Source: Hymenobacter mucosus
Lineage (GTDB): Bacteria > Bacteroidota > Bacteroidia > Cytophagales > Hymenobacteraceae
Direction: 5' to 3'
NCBI RefSeq assembly: GCF_900188255.1
Contig: NZ_FZNS01000003.1
Span: forward strand, 186,001-250,000
DNA length: 64,000 bases
Both the position numbers and the translations under genes were made by a program. Below are positions 5,428 to 12,746 of this stretch, piece after piece. Position 1 is the first letter of the stretch; every line of letters begins with the position of its first letter. The notes beneath the pieces were generated by a model. The model was given only the letters and a program-made list of their open reading frames with translations, was not told the origin of the DNA and did no database searches.

Positions 5428-6105
5428 TTAAAACAGTGGCTTCCGCTTCTTCATAATCTTGCGGGTCTTCATCGTCCAAAATTCGGCTACGCCAGGCCGT
5501 TGCAGGGTGGCGCGCCACACGCCCATGCCCTGTCCCAGTTGGTAACCCGTTGCCTGATCCTGCGGATACCGTTGTTTGATAAGCGCTAGGTCTGCCGGAG
5601 TAATATCTTGGCCTGGTGCCCCGTGGCAGCGCAGGCACAGCGCATCTTGCAGCACTACCACCCGCTGGTAGGTAAAAACCTCCGAGCTGGGGCGGGCTAC
5701 GCGTCGGGTGGTATCGGCGGAGTTTACCTCGGCGGCCGCTAGTGCTGCCCGGTGCGCCGGGTTGCGCGGGCGCGCACTGTACCAAGTTAGCTTTGCTTGC
5801 AGCACCTGGGCCAGAGAATCGGTAGTTGGGAGGGAATCGGGGTTGCAGTAGGGGAGGGCGGCTGCTACGCCACCCGCCGCAAGTTTCTGCGCCAGTACCT
5901 GCCGCAATTCCCGGTCGGCGGTACGGGTAAGCGAGTCGCCCGCCCAGCGAGTTGCCCGGAGCAGGTCGGCGGGCATAATGCGCTTTACCTGCTGGTTTTC
6001 AGCCTCCACGGCCAGTTCCTTGGTATTACTTAAGTGCTCAACCTGATCGGGGCGGCAGGCAGTTGTGGCTAGCAATAGTAAGGTGGCGGGAAGAAGAAGA
6101 CGCAT
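5428..6105 (-). CDS. DUF3365 (Tll0287-like) haem-c lipoprotein
   Basis: A 225-aa exported protein. The first 17 residues are a lipoprotein signal (LLLLATTAC). The body is a DUF3365/Tll0287-like domain, a heme-binding sensor fold related to PAS. The single c-type haem motif CLRCHG sits near residue 157, inside the domain as in this family. A redox or gas-sensing role in the periplasm is inferred from the family. It lies 44 bases upstream of the FAD oxidoreductase on the same strand, so the two may share a transcript. Confidence 0.75.
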   Translation of the reverse strand: MRLLLPATLLLLATTACRPDQVEHLSNTKELAVEAENQQVKRIMPADLLRATRWAGDSLTRTADRELRQVLAQKLAAGGVAAALPYCNPDSLPTTDSLAQVLQAKLTWYSARPRNPAHRAALAAAEVNSADTTRRVARPSSEVFTYQRVVVLQDALCLRCHGAPGQDITPADLALIKQRYPQDQATGYQLGQGMGVWRATLQRPGVAEFWTMKTRKIMKKRKPLF

Positions 6106-6200
6106 GGCAGGTAGCAGAAGGGATAGTGCAAAGGGACAAACTCCGCATCATTCAACCAAACAAGGCCGCAGATGATTTGGGGCATGCACCTCCACTACCA

Positions 6201-6252
6201 GCCAGCCAGAACCCACAGTAGCAACGAGCGCCTAAACTCGGTTCCGGCTGGC
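6201..6252 (-). terminator. Hairpin downstream of thrC
   Basis: Arms 6201-6213 and 6240-6252 match at 12 of 13 positions and fold into a stem with a 26-base loop, starting 15 bases past the thrC stop. No T tract follows, so its use as a terminator for the threonine operon is plausible but not certain. Confidence 0.5.
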
Positions 6253-6267
6253 CGGTAGGGCAGGGTA

Positions 6268-7569
6268 TTATGTGGTTTCTAGCAAGTAGGCCCGCAAGGC
6301 TTCGTAAGTGGGCTCAAGCAAAATGCTGTGTTTCTGCCGGCTCAGCAGCTCGTCCAGGGCCGCTGGTATGGGTACCGTATGGCCCGTAGCCTGCTCCACG
6401 GCGTCCGGGAATTTTACGGGGTGGGCAGTTTCCAAGAAAATGCCGGGCTGCCCAGGCTGCTGACGCAAGTAGTCCTCTAGAGCGAAATAAGCCACGGCGC
6501 CGTGCGGATCGAGGAGGTAGCCGGTTTGATCGTGTACGCGCCGGATGGTGGCGGTAGTGTCCGCGTCTGTCACGGAATAGCCACTGAGCAGCTGCTGAAT
6601 AACGGGGTGCTCATGGCTAAACAGCTCCAGAATACGACTGAAGTTGCTCGGGTCGCCTACGTCCATGGCATTGGAAAGGGTAGCCACGGCCACCTGGGCT
6701 GAGTAACTGCCCGACTTTAAGTAAGCAGGCACGGCGTCGTTGGCATTGCAGGCCGCCACAAAATGTCCTACCGGCAGCCCGGAAGTATACGCCAGCAGCC
6801 CCGCACACAAGTTGCCGAAGTTTCCGCTAGGCACGGCCACCACGGGCGCCGCAGATCCTGCCTGCTGTTGGGCCACGGCGTAGCAGTAGTACACCTGCTG
6901 GGGCAGCCACCGAGCTACGTTGATGGAGTTGGCCGAGGTAAGACGCCGGCGGCTCGTAACAGCTTCGTCGCGGAAGGCTTGCTTCACGAGGCGCTGACAG
7001 TCATCGAAATTGCCGCGCACCTCCAGGGCGATTACGTTCTGGCCCAAGGCCGTGAGTTGCTGTTCTTGCACCGGGCTTACCTTGCCCGAAGGGTAGAGGA
7101 TAACGACTTCTACTCCCGGTACTCCCAGAAAGCCGCTTGCTACGGCCCCGCCGGTATCGCCGGAGGTAGCCACCAGTACTGTTACTGGGCGCGTTTCGTG
7201 GCGGGAGAAGTACCCCAGGCAGCGGCTCATGAAGCGGGCTCCTACGTCCTTGAAAGCCAGTGTGGGGCCATGAAACAGTTCCAGGGCGCTAATTTGCTCT
7301 GTTACGGGCACCAGCGGAAAGGGGAAATCGACGGCTGCGGCGCAAATCTCGCGTAGCACGGCCTCCGGCATAGTATGGCCCACATAGGGTTGCAGCGTGG
7401 TATAGGCGATGTCGGCCGGCGACAAAGAGGCAAGGCTTTCGACGAAGCCGGCCGGAAAGCGCGGAATAGATTCGGGAAAGTATAGGCCCCCATCGGGCGC
7501 TTGCCCGGCCACGGCAGCCGTGCGAAAATCGGCCGGGGCCGACTGGCGGTTGAGACTATAATAGAGCAT
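6268..7569 (-). CDS. thrC: Threonine synthase
   Basis: A PLP enzyme of 433 aa making threonine from O-phosphohomoserine, the last step of the pathway. The N-terminus MLYYSLNRQSAPADFRTAAVAGQAPDGGLYFPE is split here by function: the YYSL start and GLYFPE loop are typical. The PLP lysine lies in HGPTLAFKDVGARFM (near residue 108); VATSGDTGGAVA and VPSGNFGNLCAG bind phosphate and cofactor. Third gene of thrA-thrB-thrC, 72 bases after thrB, so it should be controlled by the thr leader. Confidence 0.95.
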   Translation of the reverse strand: MLYYSLNRQSAPADFRTAAVAGQAPDGGLYFPESIPRFPAGFVESLASLSPADIAYTTLQPYVGHTMPEAVLREICAAAVDFPFPLVPVTEQISALELFHGPTLAFKDVGARFMSRCLGYFSRHETRPVTVLVATSGDTGGAVASGFLGVPGVEVVILYPSGKVSPVQEQQLTALGQNVIALEVRGNFDDCQRLVKQAFRDEAVTSRRRLTSANSINVARWLPQQVYYCYAVAQQQAGSAAPVVAVPSGNFGNLCAGLLAYTSGLPVGHFVAACNANDAVPAYLKSGSYSAQVAVATLSNAMDVGDPSNFSRILELFSHEHPVIQQLLSGYSVTDADTTATIRRVHDQTGYLLDPHGAVAYFALEDYLRQQPGQPGIFLETAHPVKFPDAVEQATGHTVPIPAALDELLSRQKHSILLEPTYEALRAYLLETT

Positions 7570-7641
7570 GAGTAAGCAAGCAAAAGGAGAGGTAAACCAG
7601 CAGAGTAGCCAGAGGAAGGCAGCCCAGAGAAACGACCCGCG

Positions 7642-8598
7642 CTACGCGGACGGAGGGGCTACTAGTGTCACGCCTTGCTGGTTAATTGTGGTTAGGTAGG
7701 TGTGGTGGTCGAGGCCTAGGCGCTCATACACGTCGTGCATTACCGCTTCTACGGCGCGGGCAGTCGCCTCATCTTTGCTGAGCATGAACAGGGAAGGGCC
7801 CGAGCCAGAAATGCCACCGCCCAGGGCCCCCGCGGCTTGACTGCCCTGCTTCACCTCCTGGAAGCCCGGAATAAGAATGCTGCGCACCGGCTCGATGATG
7901 ACGTCTTCAAGGGCGCGCCCAATGAGGTCGTAGTCGTGCTGGAGTAGTCCGGCTACCAGGGCGCCCACATTGCCCCATTGCTGGATAGCCAACTTCAGCG
8001 GCACCTGCTGCTTCAGAATCTGGCGGGCATCGGAGGTCTTTACCTCAATTTGGGGGTGTACTACCGTCACGAACAGGGGCGGCGCCGACAAGGGCACAAT
8101 GTCGGGCCGAGGCGTGGTGGCCCGAATTAGCGTGACGCCGCCGTAAATGCCAGGCGCAATATTATCGGCATGGCGGACGCCAGACGATACTTCCTCGCCG
8201 TACATGGCAAACTCTACCAACTCCGGCTTGCTGAACCGGTTGCCTAATAGTTGGTTAGCCCCTACTACGGCCCCCGCGGCGCTGGCGGCACTACTGCCTA
8301 TACCACTGCCAGGCTTGATGGCCTTGCTGATGCGCACCTCTATGCCCACCGGCTCTGGCACGGCCCGCAGGAAAGCCAGGAGAGCCGCTCCGGCCACGTT
8401 GCGAGCAGGTTCCGTGGGTAGGTTATAGTCGTCTTCATTGATAATGGTGACGCCGGGCTGCTCGGTGAGGCGCAAGTGCATGGTATCATTGGGCTCGTTG
8501 AGGGCAAAGCCCAGCACATCAAACCCGCACACTACATTGGCAACGGTGGCCGGCGCCAGCACGGTAACGGAAGAAGAAAGATTCATAGGAGAAGGCAT
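7642..8598 (-). CDS. thrB: Homoserine kinase
   Basis: A GHMP kinase of 318 aa that phosphorylates homoserine with ATP. The ATP-binding motif is IKPGSGIGSSAASAAGA, and the C-terminal GGGISGSGPSLFML is the third GHMP motif. Possible starts are ATG 8598 (MPSPMNLSSS) and ATG 8586 (MNLSSS); a TTG at 8637 would overlap thrA and is unlikely. I use 8598, which leaves 7 bases after the thrA stop, so the genes are co-transcribed and probably translationally linked. Confidence 0.93.
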   Translation of the reverse strand: MPSPMNLSSSVTVLAPATVANVVCGFDVLGFALNEPNDTMHLRLTEQPGVTIINEDDYNLPTEPARNVAGAALLAFLRAVPEPVGIEVRISKAIKPGSGIGSSAASAAGAVVGANQLLGNRFSKPELVEFAMYGEEVSSGVRHADNIAPGIYGGVTLIRATTPRPDIVPLSAPPLFVTVVHPQIEVKTSDARQILKQQVPLKLAIQQWGNVGALVAGLLQHDYDLIGRALEDVIIEPVRSILIPGFQEVKQGSQAAGALGGGISGSGPSLFMLSKDEATARAVEAVMHDVYERLGLDHHTYLTTINQQGVTLVAPPSA

Positions 8599-8605
8599 AA
8601 GCCGA

Positions 8606-11050
8606 TTACGACTGCACGGCACGAAGAATATCGGCAAACACGCCCGAGGCCGTTACGTCGGCACCGGCGCCGGCGCCTTTGATTACGAGGGGTTGCTCTA
8701 CGTAGCGGTTGGTGTAGAACAGCACCGCATTGTCCTTGCCCTGCAAAGAATACAAATCGTGGCCGGGTGCCAAGGACTGCAAGCCTACCCGGGCCTTATC
8801 GTCGGCGTAGCTGGCCACAAAACGCAGCTTTTGCCCGTTGGCCGCGGCCGCGTCGTAGAGTCCGCGGAAATGGGGCTCGTGCACGGCTAGTTGCTCGTAG
8901 AAAGCAGCTACATCGCCTTCTAAGCAGGAAGCCGGCAGAAAGGAGTCGTTGTGGATGTCACTCATTTCCAGAGTGCGCCCCGATTCCCGAGCTAGAATCA
9001 GAATCTTGCGCGCCACGTCTACCCCCGTAAGGTCGAGGCGCGGATCTGGCTCGGTGTAGCCTTCGTCCTGGGCCTGGCGCACTACCTCGGCAAAGGAGCG
9101 CGTGCCGTCGTAGTTATTGAACACGAAGTTGAGCGTGCCCGACAGGACGGCTTCAATGTGGTGTACCTCGTCGCCACTGCGCAGCAAGTCGTTGAGGGTG
9201 CCAATTACCGGGAGGCCCGCGCCTACGTTGGTTTCAAACAAGAATTGGGTGTTGAAGTCGTGCGCCAAGGCCTTCAGGCGAGCGTACTCAGCGTAGGCAG
9301 ATGAAGCCGCTACCTTATTACAAGCCACTACTGCCACGCTACGGGCTAGTAGGGGCGCATAGCCGGCGGCTACGTCGGCGCTGGCCGTTACGTCCACGAA
9401 CACCGTGTTGCGCAGGTTCAGCGCCAGCAGCTCTGCGGTCAGCTCGGTCAAGTTCATGGGTTGGCCGGCTTCTAGTGCGGGCTTCCAGTTGTGTAGGTCC
9501 AGTCCTTCCTCATCCAGCACAAAGCGGGAACTGTTGGCTAGCCCTACTACTCGTAGGTTGAGGCGTAGCTTCTCACGTAGCCAGGTCTGTTGGCGGGCTA
9601 GTTGGTCGAGGAGCTTGCGGCCCACGTTGCCTACGCCCACTAGCACCATATTTACTTGGCGGGTGGTGGCTTCAAAGAAGGTTTCGTGCAAGACGTTGAT
9701 GGCCTTGCGCACATCCTGCTGCCGGATTACAGTGGAGATATTCTTCTCAGAGGAGCCCTGCGCAATAGCCCGGATGTTGATGCCATTGGTCCCGAGTGCT
9801 CCAAACATACGCCCGCTGATACCGGGGTGGTCCTTCATCTGCTCACCTACCAGGGCCACAATAGCTAGGTCATCTTCCCGGTACAGCGGATCAAGGCGGC
9901 CCGCGCTGATTTCGGGCCCGAATTCTTCGTCGGCGGCTTGCTGGGCACGGGCGGCATCGGCCTTGTTCACAGCCACCGAGATAGAATGCTCCGAGGAGCT
10001 TTGGGTTATTAGAATGACGTTGACCTGCTCGCGGGCCAGGGCGGCAAACAGCCGGCGCGAAAAGCCCGGAATGCCGACCATGCCGCCGCCTTCCAGGCGC
10101 AGCAGCGTAACGGCCCCAATGCTGGATAAGCCACGCACCGTAGCCTGGTGGGCGGGCGGCGCTACTTCTACTAGGGTGCCTTCATCTTCTGGAGCAAAAG
10201 TGTTCTTGATCCAGAGTGGAATGCCCTGGCGCATTACGGGTTGAATAGTAGGTGGGTAGAGTACCTTGGCCCCGAAGTGTGACAGTTCCATGGCCTCCTG
10301 GTAGGAAATGCGCGGAATGGGCCGGGCGTGGCGCACGAGGCGCGGGTCGGCCGTCATCATGCCGCTCACATCGGTCCAGATTTCCAGTTGCTCGGCGCCT
10401 AGGGCACCAGCAAAAATAGCGGCGGTGTAATCGGAGCCGCCGCGGCCCAGGGTGGTCGTGCTACCATCATGGGTGGCCGCTACGAAGCCGGGTGCTACGT
10501 ACAGGGCCGCGTCGGCTCCGCTCACGGCTGCCTGTATCTGCGGGTTGGTGGTTGTGAAGTCAACGGCGGCGTGGCCGTAATGGGCGTCCGTGCGAATCAG
10601 CTGGCGGCTGTCGAGCCACTGGTGAGGCGTGTCTTGGGCCGCTAGTGCCGCCGCTACCACCCGCGACGACAGCAACTCCCCGTAACTTACCAGCCGGTCG
10701 AGGGTGCGGGCCGACAGCTCGCCCAGGGCAAATACGCCGTCGCAGATACTTTCCAGTTCATTGCAGTACGTTTTCACTAAGCTGAGCACCGCACTTTGAC
10801 CCGTGATGGGTAGTAGGCTGCGCACCACATCGAGGTGACGCTGCTCCAGCACTTGCAGGTGTTCTCGGTAGGAGGCATCGGCCGCCGCCGCCCGGCGTCC
10901 GGCATCAATCAGCGCATCGGTAACCCCACTCAGCGCCGAAACGACTACCACGGTGGGAGTTCGTTGGGCGGCAGCGTGGGCCAAGGCCAATACGCGTTTA
11001 ATGTTGTCGGCCGTAGCCACGGATGAACCTCCGAATTTGAGAACCTGCAT
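8606..11050 (-). CDS. thrA: Bifunctional aspartate kinase / homoserine dehydrogenase I
   Basis: A fusion of 814 aa. Residues 1 to about 290 are the aspartokinase (KFGGSSVA near the start, LGRGGSDYTAA), about 300-455 are two ACT regulatory domains (SSEHSISVAV and GSSEKNISTVI sites), and about 465 to the end is homoserine dehydrogenase (Rossmann motif VGVGNVGRKL, then VACNKVA and ETNVGAGLPVI with the later catalytic GTLNFVFNNYDG). It catalyses steps 1 and 3 of threonine synthesis, and the ACT domains normally give feedback inhibition by threonine. First gene of the operon; the leader attenuator lies directly upstream. Confidence 0.96.
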   Translation of the reverse strand: MQVLKFGGSSVATADNIKRVLALAHAAAQRTPTVVVVSALSGVTDALIDAGRRAAAADASYREHLQVLEQRHLDVVRSLLPITGQSAVLSLVKTYCNELESICDGVFALGELSARTLDRLVSYGELLSSRVVAAALAAQDTPHQWLDSRQLIRTDAHYGHAAVDFTTTNPQIQAAVSGADAALYVAPGFVAATHDGSTTTLGRGGSDYTAAIFAGALGAEQLEIWTDVSGMMTADPRLVRHARPIPRISYQEAMELSHFGAKVLYPPTIQPVMRQGIPLWIKNTFAPEDEGTLVEVAPPAHQATVRGLSSIGAVTLLRLEGGGMVGIPGFSRRLFAALAREQVNVILITQSSSEHSISVAVNKADAARAQQAADEEFGPEISAGRLDPLYREDDLAIVALVGEQMKDHPGISGRMFGALGTNGINIRAIAQGSSEKNISTVIRQQDVRKAINVLHETFFEATTRQVNMVLVGVGNVGRKLLDQLARQQTWLREKLRLNLRVVGLANSSRFVLDEEGLDLHNWKPALEAGQPMNLTELTAELLALNLRNTVFVDVTASADVAAGYAPLLARSVAVVACNKVAASSAYAEYARLKALAHDFNTQFLFETNVGAGLPVIGTLNDLLRSGDEVHHIEAVLSGTLNFVFNNYDGTRSFAEVVRQAQDEGYTEPDPRLDLTGVDVARKILILARESGRTLEMSDIHNDSFLPASCLEGDVAAFYEQLAVHEPHFRGLYDAAAANGQKLRFVASYADDKARVGLQSLAPGHDLYSLQGKDNAVLFYTNRYVEQPLVIKGAGAGADVTASGVFADILRAVQS

Positions 11051-11064
11051 AGGAAAAGGACAAG

Positions 11065-11116
11065 AAAAAACCCGCTTCGACCCGGTAGCTCCTGAGGGAG
11101 GTTCCGGCGAGGCGGG
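11065..11116 (-). terminator. Attenuator terminator of the thr operon
   Basis: Read on the minus strand, CCCGCCTCG pairs with CGAAGCGGG (one mismatch). Inside, CCGG pairs with CCGG and CTCC with GGAG, and the stem is followed at once by six T residues, 14 bases before the thrA ATG. It therefore stands between leader peptide and thrA as a conditional Rho-independent terminator. Confidence 0.85.
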
Positions 11117-11167
11117 CGGCGAACAATCAAAAAAGAGAAAGAGAAATCCGCAGCCCGCGTCAGCGGG
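11107..11167 (-). promoter_or_regulatory. Thr attenuator: pause hairpin and antiterminator
   Basis: Minus strand. The leader's last codons and stop form CCCGC-TGAC-GCGGG (plus-strand 11154-11167), a compact pause hairpin. Its 3' side, GCGGGC-T-GCG, can instead pair with CGC-C-GCCCGC just before the terminator (nine pairs, one mismatch), overlapping the 5' arm of the terminator and so acting as an antiterminator. A ribosome stalled on the leader's Thr codons would cover the pause arm and free this pairing. Confidence 0.75.
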
Positions 11168-11255
11168 TTGTTGTCACGGTAATCCCTGTAATAATGACAG
11201 CCACTGGGGCCACCAAGATGCGGGGTACTACAGAAAGGGCTCGGAATGAGGCCAT
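11160..11255 (-). CDS. thrL: Threonine operon leader peptide
   Basis: A 31-codon ORF upstream of thrA, beginning ATG-GCC-TCA at 11255 and ending in TGA at 11160. Its last ten residues read ITGITVTTTR, with codons ATT ACA GGG ATT ACC GTG ACA ACA ACC CGC; together it holds five Thr and four Ile codons, most within 12 codons of the stop. This is the logic of the enterobacterial thrL leader, where low charged tRNA-Thr or tRNA-Ile stalls the ribosome and lets transcription reach thrA. The peptide itself is probably not functional. The assignment rests on codon content, position and the coupled terminator. Confidence 0.82.
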   Translation of the reverse strand: MASFRALSVVPRILVAPVAVIITGITVTTTR

Positions 11256-11274
11256 ACGTGCGAGGATTGCGGCC

Positions 11275-11303
11275 GTAAAGTAGGAATTTTTCTGAAAGAC
11301 CAA
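11275..11303 (-). promoter_or_regulatory. Candidate thr operon promoter
   Basis: On the minus strand, TACTTTAC (plus 11275-11282) matches six of eight bases of TAnnTTTG, with TTGG (plus 11300-11303) 17 bases upstream. It would start transcripts around 11268, about a dozen bases before the leader ATG, as an attenuator needs. The match is weak. Confidence 0.3.
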
Positions 11304-11475
11304 CGTTTACGATATCGTGAATTTACATTTTCTACCTCCTTCCCCGGCTCTACTCTGTCTTCCTGTGGGGGTGAGGCGGAAAGATTAACGCGCTGTCAGG
11401 TGCTTTTTGGGGCCGTTGGGCTAGCCTCGTGGTAAGGTAGCGGTCTGGCCCTCTGCCACAAGTAGTTCCGCGGCC

Positions 11476-11506
11476 TTTCGGGGCGCCTTCCATTTGCGTA
11501 CCTTTG
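11476..11506 (+). promoter_or_regulatory. Promoter of prfA, Bacteroidota type
   Basis: TACCTTTG at 11499-11506 is a perfect TAnnTTTG -7 box. TTTC at 11476-11479 lies 19 bases upstream, a three-of-four match to the -33 TTTG. The expected start is about 25 bases before the prfA ATG. Confidence 0.6.
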
Positions 11507-11534
11507 CACTCCCAATCCCTTTTCTGCAGGCACG

Positions 11535-12605
11535 ATGCTAGATAAACTAGAGGCCATCCAACAGCGCTTCAACGACGTGAGCGAACAACTCACGCATCCA
11601 GACGTCATGAGCGACATGAAGCGCTTCAAGACGCTCAATAAAGAATATAAGGACCTGAATAAGATTGTCGTCGAGTACAAGGCCTACCTGAATGTGCTGG
11701 CTAACATCGACGGCGCCAAGGAAGTTATTTCCACCGAGAAGGACGAAGACTTCCGCCAAATGGCTAAGGATGAGCTAGAAGCGCTCTACCCCGAGCAGGA
11801 ACGCTTGGAAGCCGTTATCAAAGACTTGCTGATTCCTAAGGACCCGAACGATTCCAAGGATATTATCATGGAAATCCGGGCCGGAGCGGGCGGCGACGAG
11901 GCTGCCATCTTTGCCGGCGACTTGCAGCGTATGTACATGCGCTACGCCGAAAAGCACGGATTGCGCATGGATTTGATTGATGCTACGGAAGGTACTTCTG
12001 GTGGCTACAAAGAAATTATCCTCGCCGTGAAGGGCGAAGACGTGTACGGCAAGCTCAAGTTTGAATCGGGGGTGCACCGCGTGCAGCGCGTACCCGCCAC
12101 CGAAACTCAGGGCCGCATTCACACCTCCGTAGCTTCTATTGTGGTAATGCCCGAAGCCGAGGAACTGGACGTGGAAATCGACATGAACGACGTACGTAAG
12201 GACCTGTTTATGTCGTCGGGTCCCGGTGGTCAGTCAGTAAACACAACTTACTCGGCCGTGCGCCTCACCCACATTCCTACTGGTCTGGTGGCTCAATGCC
12301 AGGACCAAAAATCACAGCTCAAGAACTTCGATAAGGCCTTGCAGGTACTTCGCTCGCGCCTCTACGAGATTGAGTTGGCCAAGAAAAACGAAGCCGAAGG
12401 TGCGGCCCGTAAGAGCATGATTGGCGGCGGCGACCGGTCAGACAAAATTCGCACCTACAACTACCCCCAGGGCCGAGTAACGGACCACCGCATAGGCTTC
12501 ACGGTGTATAACCTGAGCAGCGTAATGGACGGTAACATTGATGATTTTGTGGAGCAGCTTCGCCTAGCTGAAAGCGCTGAACGTCTTAAGGAAGGCGTAG
12601 CGTAA
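11535..12605 (+). CDS. prfA: Peptide chain release factor 1
   Basis: RF1 of 356 aa, recognising UAA and UAG and releasing the finished protein. The anticodon-like PAT motif is seen in [14 protein letters not shown] near residue 187, which separates RF1 from RF2 (SPF), and the GGQ loop is in [20 protein letters not shown] near residue 230. Length is normal. It is transcribed divergently from the thr operon, with its own Bacteroidota-type promoter, and no prmC gene follows. Confidence 0.97.
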
Positions 12606-12644
12606 TAACTTGGCTGGCCGCACGTTTGTCTTCCCAGACGCACC

Positions 12645-12746
12645 AGAACGTCATGCCCAGGAACGACGCATCTATTCGCTACGGTAGTAATCAATAGTAT
12701 TACAACGTCAGCACCTGAGATGCACCGTCCCGCGGCATGACGTTCT
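12645..12746. repeat. Long imperfect palindromic element (terminator-like)
   Basis: The outer 29 bases at each end are an imperfect inverted repeat: AGAACGTCATGCC and its complement are exact at the tips, and GCATCT/AGATGC pair further in, with a 44-base centre. The right end runs into TTTTTT (12745-12751), so it may end prfA transcripts. The layout resembles dispersed intergenic palindromes known from other genomes; I found no second copy in this window. Confidence 0.55.

Follow-up and report, generated by a model that had tools for sequence, protein, structure and literature searches.

A probable threonine-sensing attenuator before thrABC in a Bacteroidota genus, and threonine leaders before thrA in other families of the phylum

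Is the short open reading frame (ORF) that precedes thrA in Hymenobacter mucosus part of a transcription attenuator, and if so, which amino acid would it sense and how far does the arrangement extend among relatives? We addressed these questions starting from a 64,000-nucleotide stretch of the genome (the window). The well-known enterobacterial thr attenuator places a Thr-rich leader, a pause hairpin, an antiterminator and an intrinsic terminator before the first gene. A first-pass annotation of the window had proposed a complete threonine/isoleucine attenuator of this kind. The features we assign to the locus, all on the minus strand, are as follows.

11275..11282 (-), promoter -7-like box TACTTTAC, 27 nt before the leader ATG
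11255..11160 (-), leader peptide ORF, MASFRALSVVPRILVAPVAVIITGITVTTTR, 31 codons plus the TGA stop
11166..11195 (-), control codons Ile Ile Thr Gly Ile Thr Val Thr Thr Thr
11163..11167 (-), segment 1 (CCCGC), 5' arm of the pause hairpin 1:2
11147..11158 (-), segment 2 (GCGGGCTGCGGA), 3' arm of 1:2 and 5' arm of the antiterminator 2:3
11112..11123 (-), segment 3 (TTCGCCGCCCGC), 3' arm of the antiterminator, its end common to the 5' arm of the terminator
11070..11117 (-), terminator hairpin 3:4, -25.4 kcal/mol
11065..11070 (-), run of six T, with thrA 14 bases further on
8606..11050 (-), thrA, bifunctional aspartate kinase/homoserine dehydrogenase I, the regulated gene (NCBIfam NF006959, 1012.8 bits)
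7642..8604 (-), thrB, homoserine kinase (NCBIfam NF002288 and TIGR00191), start codon provisional
6268..7569 (-), thrC, threonine synthase (NCBIfam TIGR00260, 283.5 bits)

The 31-codon ORF with its five Thr and four Ile codons was found where the annotation had placed it, and the peptide ends in Ile-Ile-Thr-Gly-Ile-Thr-Val-Thr-Thr-Thr-Arg. A 47-aa ORF started by TTG was set aside as the leader, the 31-codon ATG start having the length common to relatives. As had been described, the leader stop falls in a CCCGC/GCGGG hairpin: CCCGC (11167-11163) pairs with GCGGG (11158-11154), and the TGA (11162-11160) sits inside the loop. The antiterminator had been given as nine pairs and one mismatch; the pairing and the mismatch stand, and the count is slightly better, at 11 pairs (one of them G-U) around the one mismatch. 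The terminator (hairpin 11117-11070, T run 11070-11065) overlaps 2:3 and precedes thrA as had been proposed, and the antiterminator 2:3 and the terminator 3:4 are mutually exclusive, with 1:2 as the pause hairpin. The thrA ATG is at 11050, 109 nt from the leader stop, and the NCBIfam matches confirm the identities that had been given to the downstream genes thrA, thrB and thrC, whose product would be the amino acid that is sensed. The gene for release factor 1 (prfA) lies upstream of the leader in the opposite direction. Besides that of thrA, the window's genome encodes another homoserine dehydrogenase domain (L002, G000:C33:36089-36625), in a 445-aa open frame.

Bacteroidota promoters use TAnnTTTG. 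The shorter motif TAnnTT, which was picked after the sequences had been inspected, stands 25-31 nt upstream of the start codon in 44 of 44 leaders of the window's genus for which a start can be assigned (L067, which has none, was left out), as compared to 310 of 1590 random control windows.

Leader, antiterminator and terminator are kept, with compensatory changes, in 45 of the 72 loci fetched from the genus, which bears out the three-state design that the annotation had read from a single sequence. These 72 loci are a non-random set (the 30 best-scoring, then others chosen by hand from 102 genomes with a ThrA match), and a less biased count comes from a covariance model that was trained on the 45 loci and run on 120 genus genomes. 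According to this model, 47 of the 120 genomes have a strong match, including the 45 of the training set and two from outside it (G014 and G060), and the element is missing from 73. All 47 strong matches are directly before thrA on the same strand (positions compared by eye); apart from these the model matches only once, at a further position in G021 (E 0.0088). We note that 18 of the 120 genomes (G001, G003, G004 and 15 others) have no ThrA match at E 1e-100.

Conserved Thr codons were what the annotation had proposed to look for among relatives, and they are present in all 45 genus leaders (4 to 9 each), in which the codons nearest the stop are mostly Thr. Codon -2 is ACC (Thr) in all 40 distinct sequences, a position that is also part of the hairpin. 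Leader length is 27-32 codons in 43 of the 45 (exceptions L033 and L067), and the mean entropy is highest at third codon positions (1.37 bits vs 0.85 and 0.98). Judged by its codons, threonine is the conserved signal of the genus element, because Thr is found in 45/45 leaders and Ile is missing from 8/45; for the same eight leaders we rejected isoleucine as an equal, conserved signal, and Ile sensing is no conserved part of the element. The threonine half of the name given by the annotation is thereby retained and the isoleucine half is not.

Compensatory base changes, which the annotation had proposed to look for in all three hairpins, are present in both the 1:2 and the 2:3 helices; they were counted in 34 distinct sets of helix segments from the genus loci, and the counts are inflated by the relatedness of the sequences. 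Among the five pairs of 1:2, 156 of 170 cells are paired, and the pair beside the loop is C-G in 20 rows, G-C in 7 and mispaired in 7. The antiterminator core (GGGCYGC/GCRGCCC) is nearly invariant in the 34 rows, with a mismatch at its middle position in 14, the window among them. Near-invariance says little alone because the segment must pair with two partners, and the covariation support therefore comes from the flanking pairs: at four of them both sides are altered in 3, 4, 5 and 6 rows, and column shuffles did as well in 0, 0, 1 and 4 of 2000 trials. Three further flanking pairs of 2:3 are no better than column shuffles (248, 317 and 231 of 2000).

Median energies in the genus are -8.0 (1:2), -19.7 (2:3) and -30.9 kcal/mol (3:4). 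At 42 of 45 loci the stop-codon hairpin can be made out clearly; in L074, L076 and L077 a different local fold is better. When segment 1 is withheld, the minimum-energy fold retains the 2:3 core in 41 of 45 loci and the other four go towards 3:4 (the anchors of L064 and L072 were set by hand in the comparison of energies and folds). The T-rich tail past the terminator stem has at least five T in 8 bases in 45/45 and an unbroken run of at least four T in 41/45. In a separate survey of terminators over the loci, the finder took a wrong or overlong hairpin in L012, L014, L017, L069 and L072. For the 160-nt leader of the window, the fold z is -2.70 (3 of 200 shuffles as good). Its static minimum-energy fold as a whole is 2:3 plus 1:4, not 1:2 plus 3:4, a calculation that disregards RNA folding during synthesis. 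Four loci (L026, L031, L032 and L062) carry added sequence between terminator and thrA, which puts the leader stop 175-206 nt from thrA, and in L026 inverted repeats can be seen in it by eye.

To what extent do such leaders occur elsewhere in the phylum? We searched 300 nt upstream of thrA at 159 loci for a short ORF with at least six Thr/Ile in 10 codons. Such an ORF was found at 78 of 159 loci in the sense direction, vs 2 of 159 in antisense and 36 of 3180 dinucleotide shuffles. The annotation had presented the element as a Cytophagales version, but it is no isolated case: Thr/Ile leaders precede thrA in 8 of the 23 sampled families (f15 counted on 1/5 loci), and confinement to Cytophagales is rejected. 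The leader criterion picks out 5/5 loci in f5, 11/15 in f7 (which includes Flavobacterium), 1/1 in f6, 7/10 in f22 (which includes Balneolaceae; both names come from leader peptides matched to named records), 3/3 in f2 and 4/4 in f4. Within the window's family it picks out 5/5 loci in g5, 5/8 in g3, 1/1 in g6, 0/6 in g4 and 35/72 in the window's own genus, vs 45/72 by the genus leader criterion. No Thr/Ile leader was found at the 24 loci from the other 15 families sampled. The R1 model matches other families weakly (at best E 8.2e-5, in L055); the 40 sources gave 20 matches up to E 5, one of them in the leaderless L034 (E 0.56). These matches are no proof of common descent, because Thr codons alone may cause them. 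From the full-anatomy Thr attenuator of the window's genus and the Thr and His leaders in many families of the phylum we argue that attenuation by leader peptide is widespread in Bacteroidota and under-annotated.

The leaders come with three architectures. Type I, that of the window's genus, has stop hairpin, antiterminator and terminator. Type II, at 16 loci (g3, g5, g6, f4 and one of f5), has a leader and a terminator of -16.0 to -28.6 kcal/mol; in 5 of the 16 (L109, L110, L119, L132 and L138) the leader pairs with a terminator arm better than it does in at least 95% of shuffles, and an overlapping antiterminator is likely in some of these loci. Type III (f5, f6, f7 and f22) has a hairpin over the last codons of the leader, in most cases an ACATAT box about 10 nt past the hairpin, and no clear intrinsic terminator. 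The Flavobacterium and Balneolaceae Thr leaders are L035-L061 and, as pattern loci, L162-L241.

These pattern loci come from scanning a named genome collection for a DNA pattern made of the stop hairpin and ACATAT, which gave at least 119 stretches. Of the 80 pattern loci listed, 72 are followed by a ThrA-like N-terminus; among the remaining 8 is L232, which ends in a Thr-run leader and whose thrA may have been missed. Five of the 72 listed loci are labelled Balneolaceae, Gracilimonas or Rhodothermia. A terminator hairpin of -8 kcal/mol or lower (stem-loops of 12-49 nt) before five T was found in 0 of the 72, and a hairpin between -8 and -4 kcal/mol before five T in 2. A separate terminator search gave no candidate in 12 of 23 Type III loci (with L050 and L059 anchored on the wrong ORF). 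Long stems were seen in L037 (-14.8), L044 (-18.0) and L048 (-15.2), two of which extend back into or before the leader end, and L043 has a 9-pair stem (-6.9) before TTTTTT that overlaps the 3' arm of the stop hairpin; some Type III loci may have a weak terminator. At some Type III loci the frame continues through the hairpin (ending in PLG or PWG) and the hairpin is retained, which suggests that it is kept as RNA. The consensus fold of the Flavobacterium type (65 distinct sequences) contains the stop hairpin only, itself fixed by the search pattern, and the fold of 25 Type III loci gives three pairs of the stop hairpin.

We read the element of the window's genus, with a probability of about 0.9, as a ribosome-mediated transcription attenuator of the classical kind, with charged threonyl-tRNA as its signal and thrABC under its control; the three-state logic is applied as in the account given in passages of PMC1183508. 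Ribosome stalling, read-through and the identity of the amino acid sensed are what we infer from the arrangement. Transcription would start about 15 nt before the leader ATG, judging from the conserved box. With Thr-tRNA scarce, the ribosome would stall in the Thr run and cover segment 1, leaving segment 2 free to pair with segment 3, and transcription would continue into thrA. Without translation 1:2 would form, and termination would be expected in that case as well. A variant compatible with this, in which lack of either threonine or isoleucine blocks termination, is given somewhat less than an even chance. The four Ile codons of the window's leader, the at least one Ile codon in 37 of 45 genus leaders and the frequency of Ile in the leaders of other families are in its favor, but the eight genus leaders without Ile all have Thr, and the stop-proximal codons are mostly Thr.

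Other explanations depart further from a threonine attenuator. The hairpins might regulate thrA with the peptide being no sensor, as in a constitutive terminator or one sensed differently, for example by a protein or small molecule binding the RNA. We consider this very unlikely: the strong conservation of the 2:3 core sequence would fit it, but Thr codons recur in every genus leader while synonymous third positions vary, the leader length is kept with the stop codon in the 1:2 loop, and other families have Thr leaders with other hairpins before thrA. That the leader acts mainly via translation (re-initiation or coupling to thrA) would agree with the Flavobacterium and Balneolaceae leaders and their lack of a clear intrinsic terminator; for the window and its 44 genus relatives it is highly improbable, given their terminator folds of -22.2 to -41.3 kcal/mol with a T-rich tail and the distance from leader stop to thrA in the window. 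A chance ORF with chance hairpins has a probability close to negligible, in view of the antisense and shuffle controls, the conservation at 45 genus loci and the covariation, although the window's terminator taken alone has a z of only -1.53 (11 of 200 shuffles as good) and a generic terminator scan of 5900-12700 did not include it among the 8 terminators found (6.5 expected by shuffling). The scan probably missed it on account of the bulged stem.

If the element is a threonine attenuator, was it inherited or gained anew? A quick ThrA tree was built (97 rows, midpoint root, some open forks; L314 and L315, where no ThrA was recognised, left out), in which L047 and L049 are labelled leader despite having 4 and 5 T/I in 10 codons, below the cut. 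The leader label needs 6 changes on this tree (4 of them forced by well-supported branches), as compared to 21.5 on average after shuffling. Here f5 and f6 join the window's genus in one group, with f7 and f22 adjacent and leaders in nearly all of them, and other genera of the window's family cluster with f2 and f4. The annotation had named relatives lacking the ORF as evidence that would speak against it, and part of the genus is of this kind: 27 of the 72 fetched loci are without a leader (L034, L073, L075 and L078-L101). Because the tree gathers those that it contains into two clades (3 and 16 rows), the absence reads as loss, not as disproof of the attenuator. We read the leader as inherited and lost at least once within the window's genus; an independent gain is a conceivable alternative. 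In the leaderless loci inspected (13), thrA mostly comes soon after the divergent prfA start.

Bacteroidia have Thr leaders before thrA, and so do genomes that carry the labels Balneolaceae and Rhodothermia. One tentative and, taken as a whole, rather unlikely reading is that Thr-leader control of thrA is an old trait of the phylum whose RNA part has been repeatedly rebuilt. Flavobacterium and Balneolaceae would then work without a terminator, by the last-codon hairpin and a conserved ACATATMATCC box, with a programmed pause, Rho-dependent termination or translational coupling as candidate modes, and the window's genus would have added a terminator to an older hairpin. Neighbouring clades of which some have the attenuator and others lack it, and leader-bearing relatives that show no clear terminator, amount to natural experiments.

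How does the element relate to what has been described before? With the enterobacterial thr attenuator (RF00506, TIGR02077) it has in common a Thr-rich peptide before thrABC, a pause hairpin, an antiterminator, an intrinsic terminator and the inferred logic; it differs in the sequences of hairpins and peptide, and its Ile codons are dispensable in the genus. An element already known to Rfam was rejected, as no family, RF00506 Thr_leader included, matches the window at the gathering score. Sub-threshold RF00506 matches (33-37 bits, cut-off 55) were found in L118, L137 and L139 only, out of 15 scanned loci that took in other groups and not the window's genus. The peptide of the window has no Pfam or NCBIfam match up to E 10, TIGR02077 included, in searches whose filters remove the majority of very weak matches. 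Four peptides were tried against TIGR02077, and only that of L139 comes near (E 0.075; 12.9 bits, cut-off 22.95). The Flavobacterium and Balneolaceae Thr leaders resemble the window in having a Thr/Ile leader whose stop or last codons lie within a C-rich/G-rich hairpin before thrA, and differ in having the ACATAT box instead of a clear intrinsic terminator.

Bacteroidetes/Chlorobi are reportedly named in the abstract of a 2004 paper by Vitreschak and others, with attenuators predicted there, so that to predict such attenuators for the phylum is nothing new. In passages of two surveys, leader-peptide attenuators are held to be known only from Proteobacteria and Actinobacteria (PMC2965389), and a gamma-proteobacterial origin with few transfers is suggested for them (PMC3766115). 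A transcriptome study of Flavobacterium psychrophilum, which is of the same phylum as the window, describes strong indications of attenuation by leader peptides ahead of amino acid operons and names elements upstream of hisG and pheA that have no Rfam hit; its section on 5' cis-regulatory RNAs does not name thrA (PMC9723704). Leader-like ORFs or leader genes in the phylum are mentioned in PMC7366714 and PMC4833913, and the word threonine is absent from both main texts as consulted. In the part of the open-licence PubMed Central literature covered, we recognised no paper describing this Thr element. We regard the Thr attenuator of the window's genus as a well-supported new example of a known mechanism, not as a new mechanism.

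His leaders were found upstream of hisG. A His-rich short ORF is present at 26 of 30 loci from the phylum (the best 30 of 70 matching genomes), vs 1 of 30 in antisense, and in 18 of these 26 a T run within 110 nt is preceded by a hairpin of -8 kcal/mol or lower. No such hairpin was found within 110 nt of six Balneolaceae-like (f22) His leaders (L336, L338, L352, L354, L357 and L359). The ilvD gene of the window's genome has no branched-chain leader by the test used. The window's genome has MLYAALVLSPLCQLAAPRSGAPAGLRVLHHHHRGHHSSF before hisG, with no terminator of -8 kcal/mol or lower within 110 nt (best -3.4). Like the thrA leader, this leader is a peptide with an amino-acid run before a biosynthetic gene, but the amino acid and the hairpins are different. 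This His leader (L331, G000:C27 near 229000) contains HHHHRGHH, and its stop lies inside a TTCCTC/GAGGAA hairpin with CATCATATTGACC after it, an arrangement that somewhat resembles the Type III Thr leaders.
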